Position numbers and translations under genes: made by a program. Positions 30,781 through 63,438 of a stretch of 64,000 bases of DNA are shown one piece after another. Numbering within the stretch: position 1 is the stretch's first letter; every line of letters begins with the position of its first letter. The stretch is from Methylomicrobium sp. GTDB taxonomy: Bacteria > Pseudomonadota > Gammaproteobacteria > Methylococcales > Methylomonadaceae. The notes under the pieces are model-generated. The model did no database searches. It was not told where the DNA came from and saw nothing but the letters and a program-made list of their open reading frames with translations. The stretch lies in the NCBI GenBank assembly GCA_018333785.1, contig JAGXSU010000117.1, positions 1-64,000 on the forward strand, given 5' to 3'.

Positions 30781-31140
30781 CTATCCGCTACCCAGTCTTC
30801 TGTATGAGGTACTGCGATCGACACCCAGCAATTTGGGCGTCTGTATTTTGTTACCGGCGGTTTTCTCCAGCACATAATTGATATATGCCCGCTCAACATC
30901 TTGTAAAGTCCAGCCTTGCTGTAATGCATTTTGCAAAAAGCCTTCGGCTTCCGGAAGCTGTGATGCCTGCGCCAAATCTTCCAATAACAACGTATCGTGC
31001 TCTGTCAGCGCAATAGCCCGTTCCAGAATATTAGCCAGTTCACGAACGTTACCCGGCCAATGATAAGCACGAATCCAACGTAAAACTTCAGTTGAAATAA
31101 GAACCGGCGGCTTGCTCGAACAATCCGGCCCGGTCCTGCC
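30781..31140 (-). pseudogene. C-terminal remnant of a sigma-54-dependent (NtrC-type) regulator
   Basis: RWIRAYHWPGNVRELANILERAIAL plus Fis-type HTH; no receiver or AAA+ motor; upstream part runs into cheD. Confidence 0.8.
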
Positions 31141-31163
31141 GTGCATCGGTATAAGCCTCTTTA

Positions 31164-31661
31164 TTATTTGGCAACATGCTGCAGCCACACCTGACCATTC
31201 CAAACGTCGAAAATCACATTACGGTGACCCGTGCCCCCCAGATGCTCGGCTGTTAACTTAAAACCATGCTTTTTCAACAAACTGCGGCCAACATTGATAT
31301 TGTTAGTTGGCACACTCAATGGACCGGTTTTATGCTGACCGGGAAACTGATTGCCGCCGCCGAACATTTTGACTTCATAATCGTGGGGCCAACTGCCAAC
31401 TTTATGCAATTCGCCCATGAATAAAGTCACGGCGTCTTCCGCATAACGTCCATCAAGCTCGGTTTTTCCGGACCGACCGCGATGCATAGGTAACAGGTAG
31501 TGACACATGCCACCAATTCGCATACGCGGATGCCACATGGTTATCGCCACGCAGGAACCCAATAAGGTTCTGATGCGGGTTTCATGATCCCCGAAGTAGA
31601 ATTCGCCTGGCTGTAAGAAAATATCGATGAAAAATTCGGGTTTGTGTAGCGAGCTAAGCAT
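31164..31661 (-). CDS. cheD: Chemoreceptor glutamine deamidase CheD (cluster 1)
   Basis: LLGSCVAITMWHPRMRIGGMCHYLLP; KMFGGGNQF. Confidence 0.93.
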   Translation of the reverse strand: MLSSLHKPEFFIDIFLQPGEFYFGDHETRIRTLLGSCVAITMWHPRMRIGGMCHYLLPMHRGRSGKTELDGRYAEDAVTLFMGELHKVGSWPHDYEVKMFGGGNQFPGQHKTGPLSVPTNNINVGRSLLKKHGFKLTAEHLGGTGHRNVIFDVWNGQVWLQHVAK

Positions 31662-35753: not shown

Positions 35754-38700
35754 TTACAAATGCGCCTGTTTTTTCAATGTTACAATCGCGACACCAACCT
35801 GGCTGGAAGCCGCAGCAAAAGCACTGCCGCTGTCCAATAAGGATTCTGCTTTTTCATATTGCCCCTGATTAATGATTTCGGCGACTTTGCCGGCCTCGCG
35901 ATGAAACGCCGCGTGTTTATTCAGGCAGTCATGAAAACTCGACAAATGCTGGTATTGCTTTTGCCCACCACCGTGCAGCCATTTACCCAACTTGCAGCAA
36001 TCGTCCCTGCCGATGGTGGCGGCATCCATGAACTCGCGCTTACTGATACCTGACCGCAGTTTAATTTTCCATTCGCTGTGCGCCTGTAAAGCGGCATCCA
36101 AATCAATAGTGTCATCTGATAGTGCATTTGAAAATGTGGCTTTGGGCTGCTCTGGCCGACGCGGTGTTTTAAGAGCCGTCTGGCGCGAGGTTGGTCCGGC
36201 TTTACCGATTTTGAAGAAACTCATCAATGATTGCAGTTGCTCGGATTGTCCCGTCATTTGCTCGGCCGTCGCGGCGAGTTCTTCGCTGGCAGAAGCGTTT
36301 TGCTGGGTAATCTGATTCATCTGGTTCATGGCGTTGTTGACCTGACTGACACCGGCCGATTGCTCCTGAGAAGCGGCGGCGATTTCCTGAACCAGATCGG
36401 AGGTTTTGGCAATGCTTGGAACAATTTCATCCAACAATTTGCCCGCACTTTCGGCTGTTTTCACGCTGGACGCCGCCAGCTCGCCGATTTCCTGCGCTGC
36501 GAACTGGCTGCGTTCCGCCAGTTTGCGTACTTCTGCGGCCACTACAGCAAATCCTTTACCATGATCACCGGCTCGCGCCGCTTCAATGGCAGCGTTCAAG
36601 GCCAGCATATTGGTTTGATAAGCAATGTCGTCAATGATGCCGATTTTGGCGGCGATGTCTTTCATGGCGGCTACCGTCTGTTTCACGGCATGGCCGCCTT
36701 CAATGGCTTCTTTGGATGCTTTACCGGCCATTCCGTCGGTGATTTGGGCATTTTCAGCATTTTGGTTGATGCTGGCAGCCATTTGTTCGATGCTGGCACT
36801 GGTTTCCTCAACGCTGGCGGCCTGCTCGCTAGCCGCTTGCGACAGGGATTGCGAGGTAGAACTGATTTGCTCGGAGGCGTTGGCCAATTGATCTGCCGCG
36901 TTAATGACATCACCAATGGTTGTTGATAGATTCGCAATGGTGCTATTGACGGTATTTTTAAACTCGGCAAGCTGGCCTTTGTAATCACCGGTGATCGTCC
37001 GAGTCAAATCGCCCTGTTCGACCAAGGTTAATACTTCTCCGGCTTCATTGAGCGGAAGGATCACACCATCCAGGGTTTTGTTGACACCTTCGACAATTTT
37101 CCGGAAGTCACCTAGGTGTCTGCTGGCATCCGCTCGGGTTTCCAGACGACCCGCCTCAGCAGCAAGCGACAACATCATGGCGTCGGCAACCAGAGCTTTG
37201 ATATTGGCTCGTACTTGCTCGATGGTTTCGTTAATAAATTTTTTCTTGCCGGGAAAGCTTTCGATCACTGCATCCATGTTGCCTTGACCAAATTCCATGA
37301 AACAGGCCATCGCTTTTTTCTTGACCATAATGTGTCCTGACACCATGTCGTTGACGCCTTTGGCCATCATCCGATAACTGCCCTTAAAACGGTCTTCTTT
37401 GATGATGACGTCAATATCTCCCATATCATGCTGTTCGGACATAAAACTCATTTCTTCAATCAGGCCTTCCAGAGCATCAATACACGTATTCAGATTGTTT
37501 TTGATGACATTGAAGTCGCCGCTGTAGTGGTCGGTGATCTTTGCCGGAATCGAACCTTTAGCGATGTTGTCTACGTACTCTGCCGCCACATTCAAAGGGA
37601 AGATCACCGCATCCAAGGTGCTGTTGACACCTTGCACGATTTTGCGGAAGTCACCTTGATGCTTTGTCTCATCCGCACGGGTCGATAGCTTGCCGTCTAA
37701 GGCTGCTTGCGACAGCATGCTGGCATCGGCTATCAGTGACTGGATAGAAAATACAGCCGATTTGATACCTTCGTTAAGCTGATTGAATTCAATACCGTAA
37801 TTGTTGTGGTCGCGCTGCGGCATTTCGCCTCTTCCGAGCAAGCTCATCGCGTTGATCATTGAATTGACAGGCCGCAACACGCTCATCACGAGATACCAGC
37901 TAAACGCCAGAAAGCCCAATAACAGAAGTGATACGACTATTATTGTGATGTTGATGGCGCCATCGAGCCGCGCTATACGAGCATCCAAAGCACTGTGCAA
38001 AAATTTGCTGAATCCAGCCGACAACGCGAAATTTTGTTGAATGGCTCCCGTCAAGATGCTGAAAAATTCATTTGCTGAAAAATCGAGATTAGTGGGTTGC
38101 AATATTTGGGTTTCGGTTAACGCCATGGCTTGTCTGGCATCGGCGCTGGCTTTAATTAATTCGGAACGGGTATCGACGTCCATATTGCCAATTCTGGGAA
38201 TATTTTCGTCAATTATCGCCAATGTTCTTTTGGTATTAGAGACCACCTGAAGCAGATTAGCCTCTTCTGCCGGGGTGAGTATTTTTCTTAGCAAAATCGG
38301 AGAGCCTATGCCTCTCAATAAACCCAATCGCTCAGATAGGTCAGGGAATAAGCTGATTGCCAAAAATTGCGCGTAGTAAGTATTGGTCTCAGGGTCCAAC
38401 GCTAAGCCAGAAACATCGGCCACCTTTCGGTTAAAAGCATGCAATTGCTCGATAAACACGCCATGCTTGACCATATTGGTTGTCGCATCGAATGTGTCAG
38501 CAAAGGTTACGAGCTCTTGCCACGAGTCCTGTAAGGCTCGCCACGACTGAGTCAAACCCAATTCCGACAAATGGTTATCCATCGAGGTAATATGGGCAAT
38601 CTGTTGATTAATTTCGTTGCGTTTGGTATCACGGCTAACGATCTGCTGGCTATTGCCGGCAATCACCATCGCATTTAAGCCACGGTGTTCTACGACTAGC

Positions 38701-39320
38701 CTGATGAATTGGATGGTTTCGGTGGTGTAATCCACTCCCTGTTTTTCTTTTAAGGCAAAATTCTTTTCCTCAATACTGCGCCCTACCATTAAATAAGTCG
38801 GTACGGCGAACATTAAAATAGCCAGCACGATAAGAACGACAAATTTTTGCCAGAGTTTTATCTTGCTTAAAATGCTTGATAATTTTCCTTGCTTGAAAGG
38901 ATCTTTGATACGACCGGCTTTGATATCCGCGTAAAACGCCGACGCTTTCTCAACTTCGCTCCTGTCCGGTTTGAATCGAATAGAACGATAGCCAACCACT
39001 TGGCCTTCGTTGTAAATGGGTGACACGTTGGCTTCCACCCAGTAATAATCGCCTTTTTTTGAGCGGTTTTTGACCAACGCTTGCCACGTAGATTCCGATT
39101 TAAGGGTGCGCCACATCCATTCATAAGCCTCTTCCGGCATGTCGGGATGCCTCACAATGTTATGAGGTTGCCCAAGCAACTCTTCCTCGGTAAAGCCACT
39201 CAGTTTCACAAACCCAGGGCTGGCACTGGTAATGTTGCCGCGTAAGTCGGTGGTTGAGGTCAGAATATCGCTTTCCGAAAAATTCAGTTCAACATCTGTA
39301 ACAGGTTGATTATTTCTCAT
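35754..39320 (-). CDS. PAS-containing MCP with repeated HAMP-like modules and C-terminal CZB-like domain
   Basis: Aer-like PAS ([31 protein letters not shown]); MCP tip; C-term [31 protein letters not shown]. Confidence 0.92.
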
Positions 39321-39374: not shown

Positions 39375-41567
39375 TTAATGCAAGCTACGATGACTGCTAT
39401 GCTCCACAGAACTTACCAATATCGGCACATCGAGTATAAGTGCCACTTCGCCACTTCCCAGGATGGTTGAGCCTCCCAGCCCTTCAACATGGCCAAATAA
39501 CTTGCCCAACGGTTTGATCACCGTCTGAAATTCACCAATTAACCGATCGACCACCAAGCCTGTCTTGATGCCCGAAGAGTGCACCACGACCACGTTAGGC
39601 CTGCGCGGCTGATCCCCCTCAATATTGAATAAATCGCGCAAGCGGATAAAAGGCAATACTTCGCCACGCAAATCCATGTAATCACGGCTGCATAAATCGC
39701 CGGTCATCTCCAGGCATTCCACTACACGATCCAGGGGAATGACATAAGATGACTTACCCACACCCACCAAAAAACCGTCGATAATGGCTAATGTCAGCGG
39801 CAGACTGATACGAATGGTGGAACCAAGACCCGGCGTACTATTGACTTCTATATCGCCACGCAAATCAGTAACATTGCGTTTGACCACATCCATTCCCACA
39901 CCGCGACCCGATAGATTGGAAACCTGTTGGGCAGTGGAAAAGCCGGGTTCGAAAATCAAGGCGTAGATTTCGTGATCGGATAAATGCGCATCTGCTGCTA
40001 CCAAGCCTTTTTCGATGGCTTTTGCCAGGATACGGTTTTTGTCCAGACCGCCACCGTCATCGCTGACTTCTATGATGATGTTGCCGGATTCATGATAAGC
40101 ATTTAGCCGTAACTCACCTCGACTGGATTTGCCACGCGCCAAGCGGACTTCAGAGGATTCAATACCGTGATCCATGGCGTTACGCACTAAGTGCATAAGC
40201 GGATCACCAATTTTCTCGACAACGGATTTATCGACTTCGGTATCACCGCCCGTAATCACCAGGTTAATATCCTTACCCAATTCCTTACCGACATCTCGCA
40301 CCACTCGCTGAAAGCGGCTAAATGTGCCGCCAATGGCGACCATACGTAATTGCAATGCACTGTCGCGAACTTCCTCGACCAAACGTAACATTTCGCCGGT
40401 GGACTCTAACAAAGCACTGTCATTGGTATGCCCGGCACGTAGCTTGACGCCCGCCCCGGATATAACCAATTCGCCAATCAAATCAATGAGTTTGTCCAGA
40501 CGCTCTGCATCGACGCGGATACTTTGATTTTCGCGGGCTTTTTGTTCTTTTATCTGTTTTTGTTTTTCCAGCGCTGCATTGACAATCGGTTGCTGTACTG
40601 AATGCTGCTCGATAAGAATTTCGCCGATGGGTTGTTTGTGTTGAATAGATTGAGATTCGTCGCCGGTCAGCGTCTCTTGGTCCTGCCGGTTGAGCGCTTC
40701 TTCCAACTCGCGACGCGTCAAGGCGCCACTTTTTACCAGCAGCTGGCCGAGAAACGCTTCATCTTCCGGCAACTCATTGATCAGCGCGATAAAATCCTCA
40801 ATCTTACTGTTCATCGGCAGAATGCGGATGGTGCTGGTATCCATTACAAAGTCGAATACGCCTTCGATCTCTTCTTTACTGCAATCGCTTTTCAAATGAA
40901 TTTCAAACCCGAGATAACAGGTTTCCGGATCCATATCTTCCGGTTCCGGCATAGACTCGCTAATAGTCGTTAACTGAGCAATTTCACCCAATGTGGCCAA
41001 ATAACGGATAAATGCCAAAGGGTCCATTCCGTCCCTCAACACATCGACGCCAAAGCGTAGCGATAAATGCCAATTACCGCTATCGACGTTTCCGCCACCG
41101 CCCATGGATTCAATTTGATCCTGTTGCTCAGAGACGGCCACTACCTTGTGCGGGATGGGAACGGGTTGCATGAACTTTTGTAAATCGGCTAGCAATAACT
41201 GACCCGCTGCGGTAAGTTCAGGGTCTGAAGTCGCTTGACCATTAGCGACATTACCCACCAACAGATTGATATGATCACAGCAAGGCAGTAATACAGCGAT
41301 TAAATCCGCCGAAATGGGGATTAATCCGTCACGCACGTTATCGAGCAGACTTTCTACGACATGGGTAAAGGCAACAATATGGTCCAAGCCAAATAATCCG
41401 GATGAGCCTTTGATGGTATGGGCGGCACGAAAAATGGCGTTGATCCGTTCAGCAGGATCCTCTCCATCTTCAAGATTGAGCAAATCATCCTCCATTTGCT
41501 GGAGCAACTCGAAACTTTCAGCGGTAAAGGTCAACAGCGCATCTTTCATTAAGTCGTCGAAACTCAT
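39375..41567 (-). CDS. cheA: Chemotaxis histidine kinase CheA (cluster 1)
   Basis: Hpt [14 protein letters not shown]; dimer/HATPase HLVRNAMDHGIES; CheW-like C-terminus. Confidence 0.95.
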   Translation of the reverse strand: MSFDDLMKDALLTFTAESFELLQQMEDDLLNLEDGEDPAERINAIFRAAHTIKGSSGLFGLDHIVAFTHVVESLLDNVRDGLIPISADLIAVLLPCCDHINLLVGNVANGQATSDPELTAAGQLLLADLQKFMQPVPIPHKVVAVSEQQDQIESMGGGGNVDSGNWHLSLRFGVDVLRDGMDPLAFIRYLATLGEIAQLTTISESMPEPEDMDPETCYLGFEIHLKSDCSKEEIEGVFDFVMDTSTIRILPMNSKIEDFIALINELPEDEAFLGQLLVKSGALTRRELEEALNRQDQETLTGDESQSIQHKQPIGEILIEQHSVQQPIVNAALEKQKQIKEQKARENQSIRVDAERLDKLIDLIGELVISGAGVKLRAGHTNDSALLESTGEMLRLVEEVRDSALQLRMVAIGGTFSRFQRVVRDVGKELGKDINLVITGGDTEVDKSVVEKIGDPLMHLVRNAMDHGIESSEVRLARGKSSRGELRLNAYHESGNIIIEVSDDGGGLDKNRILAKAIEKGLVAADAHLSDHEIYALIFEPGFSTAQQVSNLSGRGVGMDVVKRNVTDLRGDIEVNSTPGLGSTIRISLPLTLAIIDGFLVGVGKSSYVIPLDRVVECLEMTGDLCSRDYMDLRGEVLPFIRLRDLFNIEGDQPRRPNVVVVHSSGIKTGLVVDRLIGEFQTVIKPLGKLFGHVEGLGGSTILGSGEVALILDVPILVSSVEHSSHRSLH

Positions 41568-41570
41568 TAC

Positions 41571-41864
41571 TTATTCCTCGGTATGGGCTAAAACAACTTG
41601 ATCGCCAAACACAGCCGTAAGATTGGCCAATTCCATAATTTCCAACACAGGCTTGCTATGCATCGCAAATTTTAGAGATTTACCGGCCTTTGCGGCTTCG
41701 CGTTTGATCAGTATCAAAATTTGTAACCCAGCCGTGTCGATTTCGACAACCTGGGAAAGATCGATCTCCAGATTGCTACCCGTGTCAAGAAAAGCAAGCA
41801 AACCGGTTTTCATCTCTGAAGCAGTAAAGATAGTCAGTTCATTTTCGATGGTAAGAGTTTGCAT
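41571..41864 (-). CDS. STAS-domain protein (cluster 1)
   Basis: LEIDLSQVVEIDTAGLQILILIKREA. Confidence 0.88.
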   Translation of the reverse strand: MQTLTIENELTIFTASEMKTGLLAFLDTGSNLEIDLSQVVEIDTAGLQILILIKREAAKAGKSLKFAMHSKPVLEIMELANLTAVFGDQVVLAHTEE

Positions 41865-41984: not shown

Positions 41985-42353
41985 TTAGGGCAAGATCAGT
42001 TTTGACACTGCCGCAAGCATTTGGGCGGGTTGAAATGGCTTGACCACCCAAGCCTTGGCGCCTGCAGCTTGACCCTCCTGCTTTTTACCTTCTTGCGATT
42101 CTGTGGTTAGCATAATTACGGGGGTGAACTTGTATTCCTGTATTTTTTTAGCTTCTTTTACAAAGGTAATACCGTCCATATTAGGCATATTCACATCGGA
42201 AATGATGAGGTGAATTTTTTGTCCATTAAGTTTGCTGAGTGCATCCTTACCGTCCACCGCTTCGATCGTGTCGTAACCTGCGCTCTTTAAAGATATGCCC
42301 ACCACTTGACGGATGGAAGCAGAGTCGTCAACTATTAAAATGGTTTTTGCCAT
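41985..42353 (-). CDS. cheY: CheY-type response regulator (cluster 1)
   Basis: ILIVDDSASIRQVV; LIISDVNMPNMDGI; KAWVVKPF. Confidence 0.94.
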   Translation of the reverse strand: MAKTILIVDDSASIRQVVGISLKSAGYDTIEAVDGKDALSKLNGQKIHLIISDVNMPNMDGITFVKEAKKIQEYKFTPVIMLTTESQEGKKQEGQAAGAKAWVVKPFQPAQMLAAVSKLILP

Positions 42354-42361
42354 GTTTATTC

Positions 42362-43441
42362 CTAGAAAAAAGTGATTTCGGGTGCGGATTGAGAAACGCG
42401 GGTCTTCGCCTGACCATGGGCATTATGCTCAGCCTCCATGGTGTAGGTGCTTTTGAGTGTATCCAGCAAATGTGTGTTATTCAGTGGCTTTAGCAACCCA
42501 ATACCGCCTGAATGGCTTTCACTGACGAAACGAGGAAAATCGTCGATGCTATCCCGGACATGACATAAGACTTGACCAATCCTATCTTGAAATTGAAATT
42601 GGATCAGCGATTCATCAATTTCGGCTCTAATATTGCGCGCAGAGTGGCCAAGATTGTTCGAGTAATGCTGTTGAGCTTCAAATACGTGTTGCAAATTATT
42701 TAAAACTGCTTGGATATTATCGTTGGAGGCCGCAACGGCTAAGGCTTCGTCTGCAGTACTTTTTTCGACAGCAGTCAAGGCTGCATACATGGCTGAATTT
42801 ATCTGTTCCACTTTGGTGCCAATCAATTTCCCGGTTTCCCCGGATAAATGAGACAGTTTTCTAACTTCATCGGCAACAACGGCAAAGCCTCTCCCCGCTT
42901 CACCGGCACGCGCTGCTTCAATGGCCGCGTTCAAGGCAATCAGGTTGGTTTGTCCGGCAATACGCGCAACTTCTGTTGCCATGTTTTTTAACTCTTCGAT
43001 ATATCCTGATAATGAGCGAATATGCGTCAGCACAACCAGATTTTCCTCAAGCGCTGATTCGAGTGAATTGACTACTTGCTGCAAGCGCAGATTGCTTGCG
43101 ACAAATATGTCTCCGTCACTGCTGCTTAACGAGGCACCGTTAGCATTCAAGGCATTATCCAGATTGACAGTGATAGACGAAAAACGCTGCGTTAGTTGGC
43201 TTATTGCCAACTCCATTTCATGGCGGGACATCTCGACATGCTTAGACCAGGCAGGGGTAATTTGTTGGGCAAAATCATTGATACTTTCAACGTAACGATT
43301 TACGGAATCAATATTCAATGCCTCATTACTGTCAATTGGTGACTGAATCAGAGCGGGTGCGGCTTTTTTCCCCATCCAGAATCCAAGACTAACGCATGTC
43401 AAACCGGTAACAATCAAAATTAAAACTTGGTAAAGGTACAT
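42362..43441 (-). CDS. Short membrane-anchored MCP-signalling protein with CheZ-like FQDRIGQ motif
   Basis: TM N-term; [52 protein letters not shown]-term EITFF. Confidence 0.85.
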
Positions 43442-59121: not shown

Positions 59122-59490
59122 TTAGGGCAACACCAGTTTGGATACCGCATCCAACAGTGTCGGCGCCTGAAATGGCTTAGTCAGCCAGGCTTTAGCCCCG
59201 GCCGCTTTACCAGCCTGTTTTTTATCGTCGGCCGATTCTGTGGTCAGCATCATCATCGGTGTGAATTTATAGGCCGGCAGTTTTTTGGCTTCCTGTACAA
59301 AGGTAATTCCATCCATATTTGGCATATTGACATCCGTAATGATCAGATTGATTTTTTGCCCCGTCAGTTTTTTAAGCGCATCCTTGCCGTCACACGCTTC
59401 AATTACTTCATATCCTGCGCCTTTGAGTGCAATAGTGACTACCTGACGAATGGAAGCAGAGTCATCAATAATCATGATGGTTTTTGCCAT
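59122..59490 (-). CDS. cheY: CheY-type response regulator (cluster 2)
   Basis: IMIIDDSASIRQVV; LIITDVNMPNMDGI; KAWLTKPF. Confidence 0.94.
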   Translation of the reverse strand: MAKTIMIIDDSASIRQVVTIALKGAGYEVIEACDGKDALKKLTGQKINLIITDVNMPNMDGITFVQEAKKLPAYKFTPMMMLTTESADDKKQAGKAAGAKAWLTKPFQAPTLLDAVSKLVLP

Positions 59491-59511: not shown

Positions 59512-60729
59512 TTAGAAAAATGTTAAATCGTTATCTTGAGCGGCACTCTGGTGAGAAACAGCGCTGTTAGCCTGGTGATTAAGCAATTCCTCGGGCATGG
59601 TGTAATTAAGCTCCATTCCGGAAAGTGTTTTATCGACATTGATCATATTGGCATGCCGCTGAGCACCTGCATGGGTAGCACTTTCCACCGTGCCTTGAAG
59701 ACTGTTAAGATTATGCTCGACATGTGACAACATTTGACTGACCCGATCCTGAAACTGGAACGCTGTCAGTACTGTGAAAATTTCGTCCCGAATTTCAGAA
59801 CTACTGCATCTGAGCGTCTCAGCATCATTTTTAAAAACATTCAGCGCATCCTGCAAATCAGTCAGCGTGTTTTGGATTGCCTGTTCAGCCTCACGGATGG
59901 TTTGGTCGTCATTAGTTCCCGAAGCAACCGACATTTTTAATGTGTTGGTCATTGCAGTATTGATATCTTCTATGGCGGCGCTGATCTTTTCGCCGGTCAA
60001 GGATGAAAAACCTGCTAACTTGCGGACCTCATCTGCCACCACGGCAAAACCACGGCCATTTTCGCCTGCCCTGGCGGCTTCAATCGCAGCATTTAATGCC
60101 AATAAATTGATTTGCTCGGCGACTTTTCGAACTTCCTGAGCCATTGAGTCCAGTTGATGCGTATGTAAAGATAGCTTACGCACTTCATCGACAACGGCAT
60201 GCTCAACATTCTGAATCTCGGCAAGCGCTTTTAACACTTGATTCAAAGCCTTGTGGGTATCTGAAAACAAGGTATCGATACCACGGCCATCCTCGGCATG
60301 ACCCGTGCCGTTGATAATATTGCTCAACTGATCAACCATCACGCCAAAGCGCTTGGTTAATACCGTGATTTCCTGCTCAGTATGGCTGCGGGAGGTTTGC
60401 ACTTGTCTCAACAGAATCGGCGCCACATGAATGAATAACCTTTCCAGTTCAGTCGCATAAGCGTTGACATCATCAAGCTTATTCATTTCATCCTGTTGCC
60501 AACGTTCATTGTTTTGCCGAATCAGAGCTTGCTGTTTATTGAATAACAGGTGGCCAATCAAAATGCCTGCCAGGATTAAAACCAGTGTCACGACAAAACC
60601 CAATAAACCAAATCCCGATAATAACAACAACAGCAAACCAGACATTAATCCCAATCCGGCCGGGAGCAAATAGAAGCTGGCTTTTCCTACACCGGCTTCA
60701 GCAGCTTGGTAATTAGCTGTGCGTGACAT
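59512..60729 (-). CDS. Short membrane-anchored MCP-signalling protein with CheZ-like FQDRVSQ motif
   Basis: Two TM segments; [48 protein letters not shown]-term NDLTFF. Confidence 0.85.
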
Positions 60730-60879
60730 GAAATTTCCTCTAGAATTTGCAAATTAACAGCGTTGATAGTAGTTGCTTTTCTGATCTATACAACCACCTA
60801 CCATGCTAGGAAATAGAAAAATGCCAACCCGTCCACTGTTTTTTAATTTGCCTGTTAATTTTTACACTGTGAGGATTGC

Positions 60880-61686
60880 TTGAGTATTTCACCGATTACA
60901 CCTGAAGAATTTGATCGGTTCAGGCGTCTGATTTACGACCATGCCGGCATTGCACTGATACCGGAAAAAAAAGTAATGGTAGCCAGTCGGCTTGCTAAAA
61001 GGCTGGATTACTATGGTGTTTCAACTTATGGAGAATATTTCCAGTTAGCCACGCAACGCGATCATCCTCAGGAGTTTCAGATGATGGTCAATATTCTTAC
61101 CACTAACGAAACCTATTTCTTTCGTGAACCGAAGCACTTTGATTTTTTCCGCCAAGAAATTATAAAAAACTGGCGGGGTGAGCATTTCAGGCTGTGGAGT
61201 GCCGCCAGTTCATCCGGCGAAGAAGCCTACAGTCTGGCCATGGTGATGGCCCAAGATCTGGGAATGCGGCGTTGGGAAATTTTAGGATCCGATTTAAGCA
61301 CTCGCGTCCTGGATATAGCCAAACAAGGCGTCTATACGATGGATAGGCTGGAACAAATGGACATGTCACTCATGGAAAAATATTGTCTGAAAGGTGTGCG
61401 TTCGCAAGCCGGTTTTTTTAAAGTTGACCAGAAGTTGCGGGACAGGGTGAGCTTTCAACAAGTCAATCTGATGCAACCGTTACCGACCGGCATCGGTAAA
61501 TTCGATGTTATTTTTTTACGCAACGTTTTGATTTATTTTGACCAGGATACTAAAAAACAGGTAGTTGAGCGACTCGCAACCGCTCTAAAATCCGGCGGCT
61601 ATTTCTTTGTCAGCCATTCCGAAAGTCTGCATCGCATTACTGACCAATTGCAAAGTATCAAACCTTCGATTTATCGGAAACCATGA
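60880..61686 (+). CDS. cheR: Chemotaxis methyltransferase CheR (cluster 2)
   Basis: ILTTNETYFFREPKHFDFF; RLWSAASSSGEEAYSLAMV; FDVIFLRNVLIYFDQ; TTG start. Confidence 0.95.
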   Translation: MSISPITPEEFDRFRRLIYDHAGIALIPEKKVMVASRLAKRLDYYGVSTYGEYFQLATQRDHPQEFQMMVNILTTNETYFFREPKHFDFFRQEIIKNWRGEHFRLWSAASSSGEEAYSLAMVMAQDLGMRRWEILGSDLSTRVLDIAKQGVYTMDRLEQMDMSLMEKYCLKGVRSQAGFFKVDQKLRDRVSFQQVNLMQPLPTGIGKFDVIFLRNVLIYFDQDTKKQVVERLATALKSGGYFFVSHSESLHRITDQLQSIKPSIYRKP

Positions 61687-62279
61687 AAGTCCAACCCTTC
61701 AAAAACACGCAGCGGATCATTATCGATCCGGGCGAGTATTATGTAACACGCCGTAAAGAAGTCATTTCCACACTATTAGGCTCCTGCGTATCAGCCTGCC
61801 TGTTCGACCCGGTCAATCAGGTGTTTGGTATGAACCATTTTTTACTGGCATACCGGTTTCATGCGCATAACATGCCTATCATTCAGTCTGAAGAAGGCCG
61901 ATATGGTGTTTACGCGATGGAATTACTGATTAACGATATGATGAAAATGGGCGCGAACAAGCTACACTTAAAAGCCAAATGTTTCGGCGGCGGCAATGTT
62001 TTGAAACTGCGTGAGGACAGGGAAAACAAAGACACTGTCGGCGATGTTAACGTCATGTTTATTAAGGAATTTCTAAAAAATGAACATATACCGATAGTCG
62101 GTTCCTGTTTGGGAGGTAATCATGGCCGGAATGTTCATTTTGTCGGCACCGATTATTCGGTCTTCATAAAAAAAATCGGTGATCAGCAAGAACGGCTACT
62201 GGAAAGTGAGGAACGCCGTTACTGGAAACAAAGCATTGACGAGCGTGAAAAGACCAAGAGCTCAACCGATTTCTGGTAA
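61683..62279 (+). CDS. cheD: Chemoreceptor glutamine deamidase CheD (cluster 2)
   Basis: STLLGSCVSACLFDPVNQVFGMNHFLL; KCFGGGNVL. Confidence 0.93.
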   Translation: MKVQPFKNTQRIIIDPGEYYVTRRKEVISTLLGSCVSACLFDPVNQVFGMNHFLLAYRFHAHNMPIIQSEEGRYGVYAMELLINDMMKMGANKLHLKAKCFGGGNVLKLREDRENKDTVGDVNVMFIKEFLKNEHIPIVGSCLGGNHGRNVHFVGTDYSVFIKKIGDQQERLLESEERRYWKQSIDEREKTKSSTDFW

Positions 62280-62337
62280 CGTTGCCGGGCATTTAAACGA
62301 CTGATATTTTTAAAAACACATCAACACGGCAGGTTTT

Positions 62338-63438
62338 ATGGCGGACATCAAAGTATTCATCGTCGACGATTCAGCCGTGGTCAGGCAGGTCTTGACCGCC
62401 CTGTTGAACAGCATAGCGGGCATCACAGTTATCGGCTCGGCACCCGATCCTCTGTTTGCACTGAAACGGATGGAAACGGACTGGCCGGACGTCATTGTTC
62501 TTGACATCGAGATGCCGCGCATGGATGGCATCACGTTTCTAAAAAAGCTGATGCAGGAACATCCCACCCCGGTGGTGATTTGCTCAACGCTCACGGCAAA
62601 AGGGGCGGAAGTCACCATGCAGGCGATGAGCGCCGGTGCGGTTGACATCATTACCAAACCGACGGTTAATTTGAAAGGTTTTCTCCAGGATTCAAAAACC
62701 CTGTTGGCCGATGCAGTAAAAGGCGCGTCCCACGCCAGAGTTGGCCGAATGAGCGCGGGCATTCCGAAAAAATCAATCATGGAATCGCAGCCCAAACTCA
62801 ACGCCGATGCCATCATCGCCCCCCATGCTGGCAGTATCCATGAAACGACCGATAGAGTGGTATCCATAGGGACATCTACAGGCGGAACACAGGCATTGGA
62901 ATATGTGCTGACCCGCTTACCTCGATCGGTCCCTGGTATTATCATCGTCCAGCATATGCCGGAAGCCTTTACTGCGGCGTTTGCCAAACGCCTGGACAGT
63001 CTTTGCCAAGTCACCGTTAAAGAAGCGGAGCAAAACGATCGGGTCATTCCCGGTTTGGTGTTAATCGCTCCGGGCGGAAAACATATGCTTTTACGACGCA
63101 GCGGCGCACAGTACCGGGTAGAAATCAAAGACGGCCCTTTGGTCAGCCGTCATCGCCCGTCCGTGGACGTTCTTTTTCGATCTACAGCCCAAGCCGCAGG
63201 TCAAAACGCGCTGGGTATCATTATGACGGGCATGGGAGATGACGGCGCACGCGGCATGAAAGAGCTACACGATACCGGCGCATTGACGGTCGCACAGGAT
63301 GAAAATAGCTGCGTTGTATACGGTATGCCCAAAGAGGCCGTCAAACATGGCGGTACTGATGGCGAACTGCCTTTATCGGCAATACCCAACCTGATAATCC
63401 AATCTCCCAGCCGGACTCGCTTCCTCAAAGGATCTTAG
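62338..63438 (+). CDS. cheB: Protein-glutamate methylesterase CheB (cluster 2)
   Basis: Receiver [28 protein letters not shown]; esterase [47 protein letters not shown]. Confidence 0.96.

Follow-up and report, generated by a model that had tools for sequence, protein, structure and literature searches.

In Escherichia coli, CheZ forms a hairpin dimer that is brought to the array by its tip; DxxxQ lies on the second helix, and a linker after the hairpin leads to a C-terminal helix that contains the region binding CheY-P (PMC7750401). A role of DxxxQ in dephosphorylation is proven for CheZ and for NarX, a HisKA_3 kinase; kinases of this type carry the motif on one helix of a four-helix bundle and use it to dephosphorylate a receiver (PMC3510030). 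The McpA-like receptors of F7-type systems have a strikingly conserved C-terminus whose role has been called "important yet unclear," and McpA is not required for formation of the F7 array (PMC7184735). In early F7 systems, a receiver-SpoIIE serine phosphatase has been described after the McpA-like gene (PMC7184735). A further described protein is VC1394 of the Vibrio cholerae F9 system, a 24H receptor with a TM segment, of whose function little is known (PMC7534058).

The locus described here lies in a 64,000-nucleotide stretch of a Methylomicrobium sp. contig (JAGXSU010000117.1; the window) and encodes a protein, termed the module protein, with likenesses to each of these systems. Its parts follow the order seen in CheZ, with a hairpin turn, DxxxQ on the second helix, a linker and a terminal peptide, but the turn is an MCP tip and the peptide ends in [DE][IV]xxF. 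With the F7 McpA-like receptors, it shares an N-terminal membrane anchor, an MCP tip and a conserved, homologous C-terminal extension. Unlike the HisKA_3 kinases, with which it has the placement of DxxxQ on a bundle helix in common, it has neither a kinase domain nor a phospho-accepting His. VC1394 is comparable by description alone, in its TM segment, signalling domain and neighbouring core chemosensory genes, and its relation to the module is a lead only. Judged from sequence, the module protein is probably a CheY-P phosphatase that has a chemoreceptor hairpin as its scaffold and docks at the array. The features on which the comparison draws are as follows.

42362 to 43441, minus strand: module protein, 359 amino acids, ATG start (open reading frame list, Pfam, AlphaFold)
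43364 to 43435, minus strand: TM-like N-terminal helix, residues 3-26 (sequence and predicted helix)
43172 to 43261, minus strand: conserved patch of the N-helix, residues 61-90 (conservation of 0.62-0.70 per 10-residue block)
42842 to 42991, minus strand: MCP tip hairpin, about residues 151-200, with G163 before QTN and no aromatic residue there (Pfam and residue tally)
42572 to 42598, minus strand: FQFQDRIGQ, residues 282-290, with D286 and Q290, candidate DxxxQ active site (conservation and CheZ register)
42413 to 42475, minus strand: short helices around [19 protein letters not shown], about residues 323-343, YTMxxE..H (conservation and predicted helices)
42365 to 42379, minus strand: C-terminal EITFF, candidate CheY-docking peptide (conserved tail)
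41985 to 42353, minus strand: partner CheY with D53, N55, T83, E85 and K105 (Pfam Response_reg)
41571 to 41864, minus strand: STAS-domain protein of cluster 1 (Pfam STAS_2)
39375 to 41567, minus strand: CheA of cluster 1 (Pfam Hpt, H-kinase_dim, HATPase_c and CheW, all above cut-off)
59512 to 60729, minus strand: paralogous module protein of cluster 2, 405 amino acids, FQFQDRVSQ ... NDLTFF (37% identity, E = 3.9e-45)
59122 to 59490, minus strand: CheY of cluster 2, directly downstream of the paralogue (open reading frame list)

The interpretation starts from what can be observed directly, namely the sequence, the gene order, conservation, an in-register similarity to CheZ and a predicted hairpin. 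The protein consists of a TM segment, a disordered linker, a helical hairpin with the MCP tip, the DxxxQ helix and a conserved C-terminal tail. Residues 139-262 match Pfam MCPsignal (PF00015; E = 4.9e-23, 82.3 bits against a cut-off of 34.6), as do all 29 full-length relatives, and this is the only Pfam family above its cut-off, with no HAMP and no ligand-binding domain. The preliminary description of a short protein with an N-terminal TM segment, an MCP tip and a tail ending APEITFF was exact. In the AlphaFold model, a single chain predicted from a 55-sequence alignment with a mean pLDDT of 80, the hairpin helices span residues 44-105 and 110-178, turn near 179 and return over residues 180-300; beyond the hairpin are short helices at 322-331 and 336-342 and a loose C-terminus. 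The second hairpin helix bears D286 and Q290, some 107 residues away from the tip.

Conservation is highest at residues 61-90, in the tip, at residues 271-290 and 331-340 and at the very C-terminus. Just ahead of the first of these peaks it falls to 0.28-0.41 per 10-residue block, and within the peak F87 is invariant and W65, R73 and E77 are nearly so; going by helix lengths, the folded hairpin would place this patch opposite the DxxxQ segment. Near-invariant positions in the 323-343 region are Y333, M335 and H342 (29 relatives). In an alignment of these relatives, which were gathered through full-length similarity, I271, Q283, F284, D286 and Q290 are invariant outside the tip. To avoid circularity, the motif columns were masked in a profile of the C-terminal part that was run against all open reading frames of 117 loci, many of them originally drawn with unmasked profiles, and both D and Q were present in 78/78 complete tails; a broken fragment was the one sequence that departed from this. 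Of the 40 loci L232-L271, most are independent of the motif, as they were drawn by a search for Aer2-type receptors. Invariance in a further alignment (A3) was discounted because most of its members had been found by a pattern containing the motif.

The relation to CheZ was assessed by several comparisons. The Pfam CheZ profile (PF04344) matches the module protein at E = 0.011, with 16.1 bits against a cut-off of 30.7 and over profile positions 85-142 of 203, and matches 9/29 relatives at E<=1 (best 5.3e-4). This weak match proves little, since unrelated coiled-coil families match the relatives as well or better, and membership of the Pfam CheZ family was rejected on the score and on the partial coverage of the profile; the module is CheZ-like but, with a score below the cut-off, stands outside the CheZ family. 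In profile-profile alignment by hhalign, the family matched gammaproteobacterial CheZ at 70.6% (E = 3.9e-5, score 35.8), diverse CheZ at 80.2% and divergent CheZ, most of it taken from other classes within the phylum, at 82.0%, rising to 86.4% when the soluble forms described below were added. The controls scored lower, with 23.2 and 21.1 for the best of 300 column shuffles, 15.5 for the reversed profile and 17.0 for ordinary MCP tails, and the C-terminal tails of 42 ordinary MCPs matched CheZ at 0.7-3.3%. In the printed alignments, the module DxxxQ falls on the CheZ DxxxQ, with about 55 residues of helix in register. Core positions common to both, counted from D, are -15, -11, -7/-8, +6, +9, +13, +16 and +20, and the angles from the hydrophobic moment (114-132 degrees for D, 165-184 degrees for Q) are alike in this branch, the McpA-like receptors, the soluble forms and CheZ. 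The match of FQDRIGQ with FQDLTGQ that had been read from the letters alone therefore holds up, being in register, significant against controls and on the same helical face.

The likeness is limited to these approximately 55 residues. CheZ against CheZ reaches 99.9% (E = 3e-36), so the similarity of the module is best described as distant or convergent and confined to one helix, rather than as membership. Profile comparison found no similarity between the N-terminal helices of the module and those of CheZ, and full CheZ homology was rejected on this ground. Taken by itself, the soluble form gives a weak match to CheZ (0.8-34%). In the C-terminal comparison with CheZ proposed at the outset, hhalign returned 70-86%; Foldseek with the module model returned MCPs and generic coiled coils, with no CheZ among the 50 matches listed. 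Further likenesses to CheZ are a second hairpin helix that carries DxxxQ in a matching hydrophobic register, the linker, the acidic-hydrophobic C-terminal peptide and the position of the gene beside cheY, and the MCP tip occupies the place of the array-localising hairpin tip of E. coli CheZ (PMC7750401). In contrast to CheZ, the module protein includes a TM segment and an MCP tip, its tail is EITFF rather than LSSLGF, and conservation does not extend to the T and G of FQDLTGQ. By eye, the tails DIELF and EITFF of the module are similar to peptides of the CheY-docking kind, such as ..DIDALF in divergent CheZ, DVDDLLSSLGF in CheZ and SQEEIDALL in the FliM of the same organism.

The module extends beyond this branch. 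F7-type clusters comprise an Aer2-like receptor ending in WEEF together with cheY, cheA, cheW, cheR, cheD and cheB, and the McpA-like receptors read in them carry F[EQ]DxxxQ and a tail of the form [DE][IV][ED]LF; PA0180/CttP and VCA1088, the named McpA-like receptors (PMC7184735), were compared through other F7-linked members rather than through their own sequences. The profile of the McpA-like tails matches the tails of the Methylomicrobium branch at E = 5.2e-12 (hhalign). Most of this branch ends in [DE][IL]TFF, as against [DE][IV][ED]LF in the McpA-like and soluble branches. Unlike the F7 McpA-like receptors, the [DE]ITFF branch sits in a module-cheY-STAS-cheA cluster lacking a WEEF-tailed Aer2 receptor, and no such receptor was found in either cluster of the window. 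Two F7 McpA-like module genes are followed by a receiver-SpoIIE serine phosphatase gene. In five further F7-like clusters, the place of the McpA-like receptor is taken by a tip-less soluble protein of approximately 150-230 amino acids.

L189, 2531 to 3103: soluble DxxxQ protein
L191, 3848 to 4444: soluble DxxxQ protein
L199, 3923 to 4387: soluble DxxxQ protein
L261, 9938 to 10519: soluble DxxxQ protein
L263, 12430 to 13110: soluble DxxxQ protein

The soluble form, typically about 190 amino acids, has FQFYDxxxQ or LQFEDxxxQ and a tail of the form [DE][IV][ET]LF, and where scanned against Pfam showed no family above cut-off. It matches the receptor form at E = 1.6e-17 (hhalign), and the N-helices of the two forms compare at 87.7-92.6%, against 23.9% for an ordinary-receptor control. 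Soluble DxxxQ proteins were also seen at L187 (3859 to 4461) and L193 (3728 to 4288) near a gene for a CheW-receiver protein of the CheV type, with Rsd/AlgQ also present at L193; CheV-P may be another target of the proteins at these two loci. One F7-type cluster has a canonical CheZ (L247, 1837 to 2574; tail LLAELGF) and no module. About a dozen F7 loci showed no module gene in the stretch read, several of them being cut by contig ends, and most of the genomes concerned carry a module gene elsewhere.

The tip itself differs from that of ordinary receptors. The residue before QTN is F or Y in 45/45 ordinary MCPs of the same loci and never F or Y in the module receptors, where it is A, E, D, Q, S, H, G, N or R, or W in eight proteins (15 receptors unreadable by the pattern used are left out of this tally). 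This position is that of Tsr F373, a trimer-of-dimers contact, and with this contact altered the module receptor is probably not an ordinary signalling receptor. A tip without F or Y fits the published dispensability of McpA-like receptors for F7 arrays (PMC7184735). On this evidence, it is unlikely that the protein is a true chemoreceptor of the McpA-like or 24H-like kind without phosphatase activity, in which QFQDRxxQ and the tail would dock CheD, CheB, CheR or the STAS protein or would be a structural feature of the bundle. Such a receptor would agree with the real MCP tip, with the annotation of one relative as a receptor in a public record and with an association of McpA with the F6 array, as reported in work cited in PMC7184735. 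However, it would leave unexplained the soluble copies that share motif and tail but have no tip, the match of CheZ register and face, and the lost aromatic residue at the trimer contact of the readable tip-bearing members, and F7 arrays can form without McpA (PMC7184735).

The reading of the protein as a phosphatase would place its parts as follows. The cytoplasmic part would be a helical hairpin, probably dimeric, whose turn, the MCP tip, probably docks the protein at the baseplate of its own CheA and CheW. D286 and Q290 would face outward, enter the active site of CheY and position a water molecule as D143 and Q147 of CheZ do. A flexible linker would lead to a C-terminal peptide capturing the cognate CheY-P, as with the CheZ tail, and the protein would serve to terminate signalling through the CheY of its own cluster, where cheZ is absent. 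Dimerisation, array docking, CheY binding and catalysis are what we infer for the module from these likenesses. The receptor/phosphatase hybrid of the preliminary description keeps in this form its real MCP tip and a conserved CheZ-like C-terminal pentapeptide, while the Pfam score places it outside the CheZ family.

A conserved patch on a helix could just as well serve to bind a partner, with no catalysis involved. A protein of this kind, holding CheY-P at the array or membrane through the DxxxQ face and tail, as a sink or localiser without hydrolysis, is predicted as much as a catalyst by the cheY linkage and the CheZ-like surface, but binding alone would not require D and Q together at this exact spacing, and the invariance of both makes it quite unlikely. 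The linkage is close. In cluster 1, the module gene is separated by 8 bp from cheY, followed in order by the STAS gene and cheA, and the paralogue has the same position in cluster 2, ahead of its own cheY, STAS gene and cheA. Across 80 named loci, which span Methylococcales, many Betaproteobacteria, Actinoplanes, Dactylosporangium and Kineosporia, cheY lies directly downstream in 65/80, as had been noted for the window, CheA is present in 74/80, STAS in 69/80 and CheZ in 0/80. The CheY positions D+2 and T+2 tune dephosphorylation. In the aligned partner CheYs, D+2 is N in 77/79 and T+2 is E in 77/79, as in the E. coli type.

The observation that no cheZ, cheC or cheX is seen in the window stands for the clusters and not for the genome, which has a canonical cheZ beside cheY in the flagellar cluster (contig 149), a CheX-like protein (contig 139) and a full F6-type system. 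The suggestion that the module compensates for organism-wide loss of cheZ was abandoned, cheZ being present in this genome and in 13/13 other proteobacterial genomes checked. Similarly, a role as the sole phosphatase in Actinobacteria was rejected, as 9/9 genomes lack CheZ and CheC yet have CheX. As the genomes checked have cheZ, or CheX in Actinobacteria, the module is no substitute for cheZ at the level of the organism; it goes with additional chemosensory clusters without a phosphatase of their own. A cross-talk device, dephosphorylating mainly the flagellar (F6) CheY rather than the CheY of its cluster, is conceivable in a genome with a full F6-type system, and F7 McpA has been placed at the F6 array by a report cited in PMC7184735; tight linkage to its own cheY (65/80 loci) and the cheZ already present in the flagellar cluster make this very unlikely. 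That FxDxxxQ arose by chance within a long coiled coil is scarcely credible, for although the motif is short and coiled-coil profiles cross-match easily, D and Q are invariant under the masked profile and the shuffle, reversal and ordinary-receptor controls all fail to match CheZ.

A broader proposal is put forward more tentatively and is held at somewhat short of even confidence: the receptor-shaped and soluble forms may constitute an unrecognised superfamily of DxxxQ phosphatases serving as the CheY off-switch of F7-type, STAS-containing and other cheZ-less clusters in Proteobacteria and Actinobacteria, the McpA-like "receptors" being phosphatases rather than sensors, and CheZ may share a hairpin ancestry with them. 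In F7 stage 1/2 systems, cheY is present and cheZ absent. If the proposal is correct, the conserved McpA-like C-terminus would be a CheY-P phosphatase site with a docking tail, the dispensability of McpA for array building would be explained, annotated chemoreceptors would become signal terminators, and many alternative chemosensory systems would have a local off-switch. A literature search, with bioRxiv preprints outside its coverage and subscription journals mostly so, returned no paper proposing a CheY-P phosphatase role for the module.

Several further observations concern the surroundings of these genes. Cluster 2 (59512 to 63438) lies 17 kb from cluster 1 and has the module paralogue, cheY, STAS, cheA, MCP and cheW genes on the minus strand and cheR, cheD and cheB on the plus strand. 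A search of plasmids found one Pseudomonas relative, of the STAS-cluster type, and in Pseudomonas sp. HR96 a 180-kb plasmid bears the same cluster, module-cheY-STAS-cheA-MCP-cheW-cheR-cheD-cheB (L201, 9179 to 17990). A genome of the same family contains a broken module gene with its C-terminal part out of frame (L031, 1347 to 2286). Within the window, positions 35754 to 39320 encode a 1188-amino-acid receptor with PAS, several HAMP repeats, an MCP signalling domain and a C-terminal zinc-binding CZB domain, and a 140-amino-acid open reading frame at 30781 to 31203, overlapping the end of cheD, resembles a C-terminal remnant of an NtrC-type sigma-54 activator.
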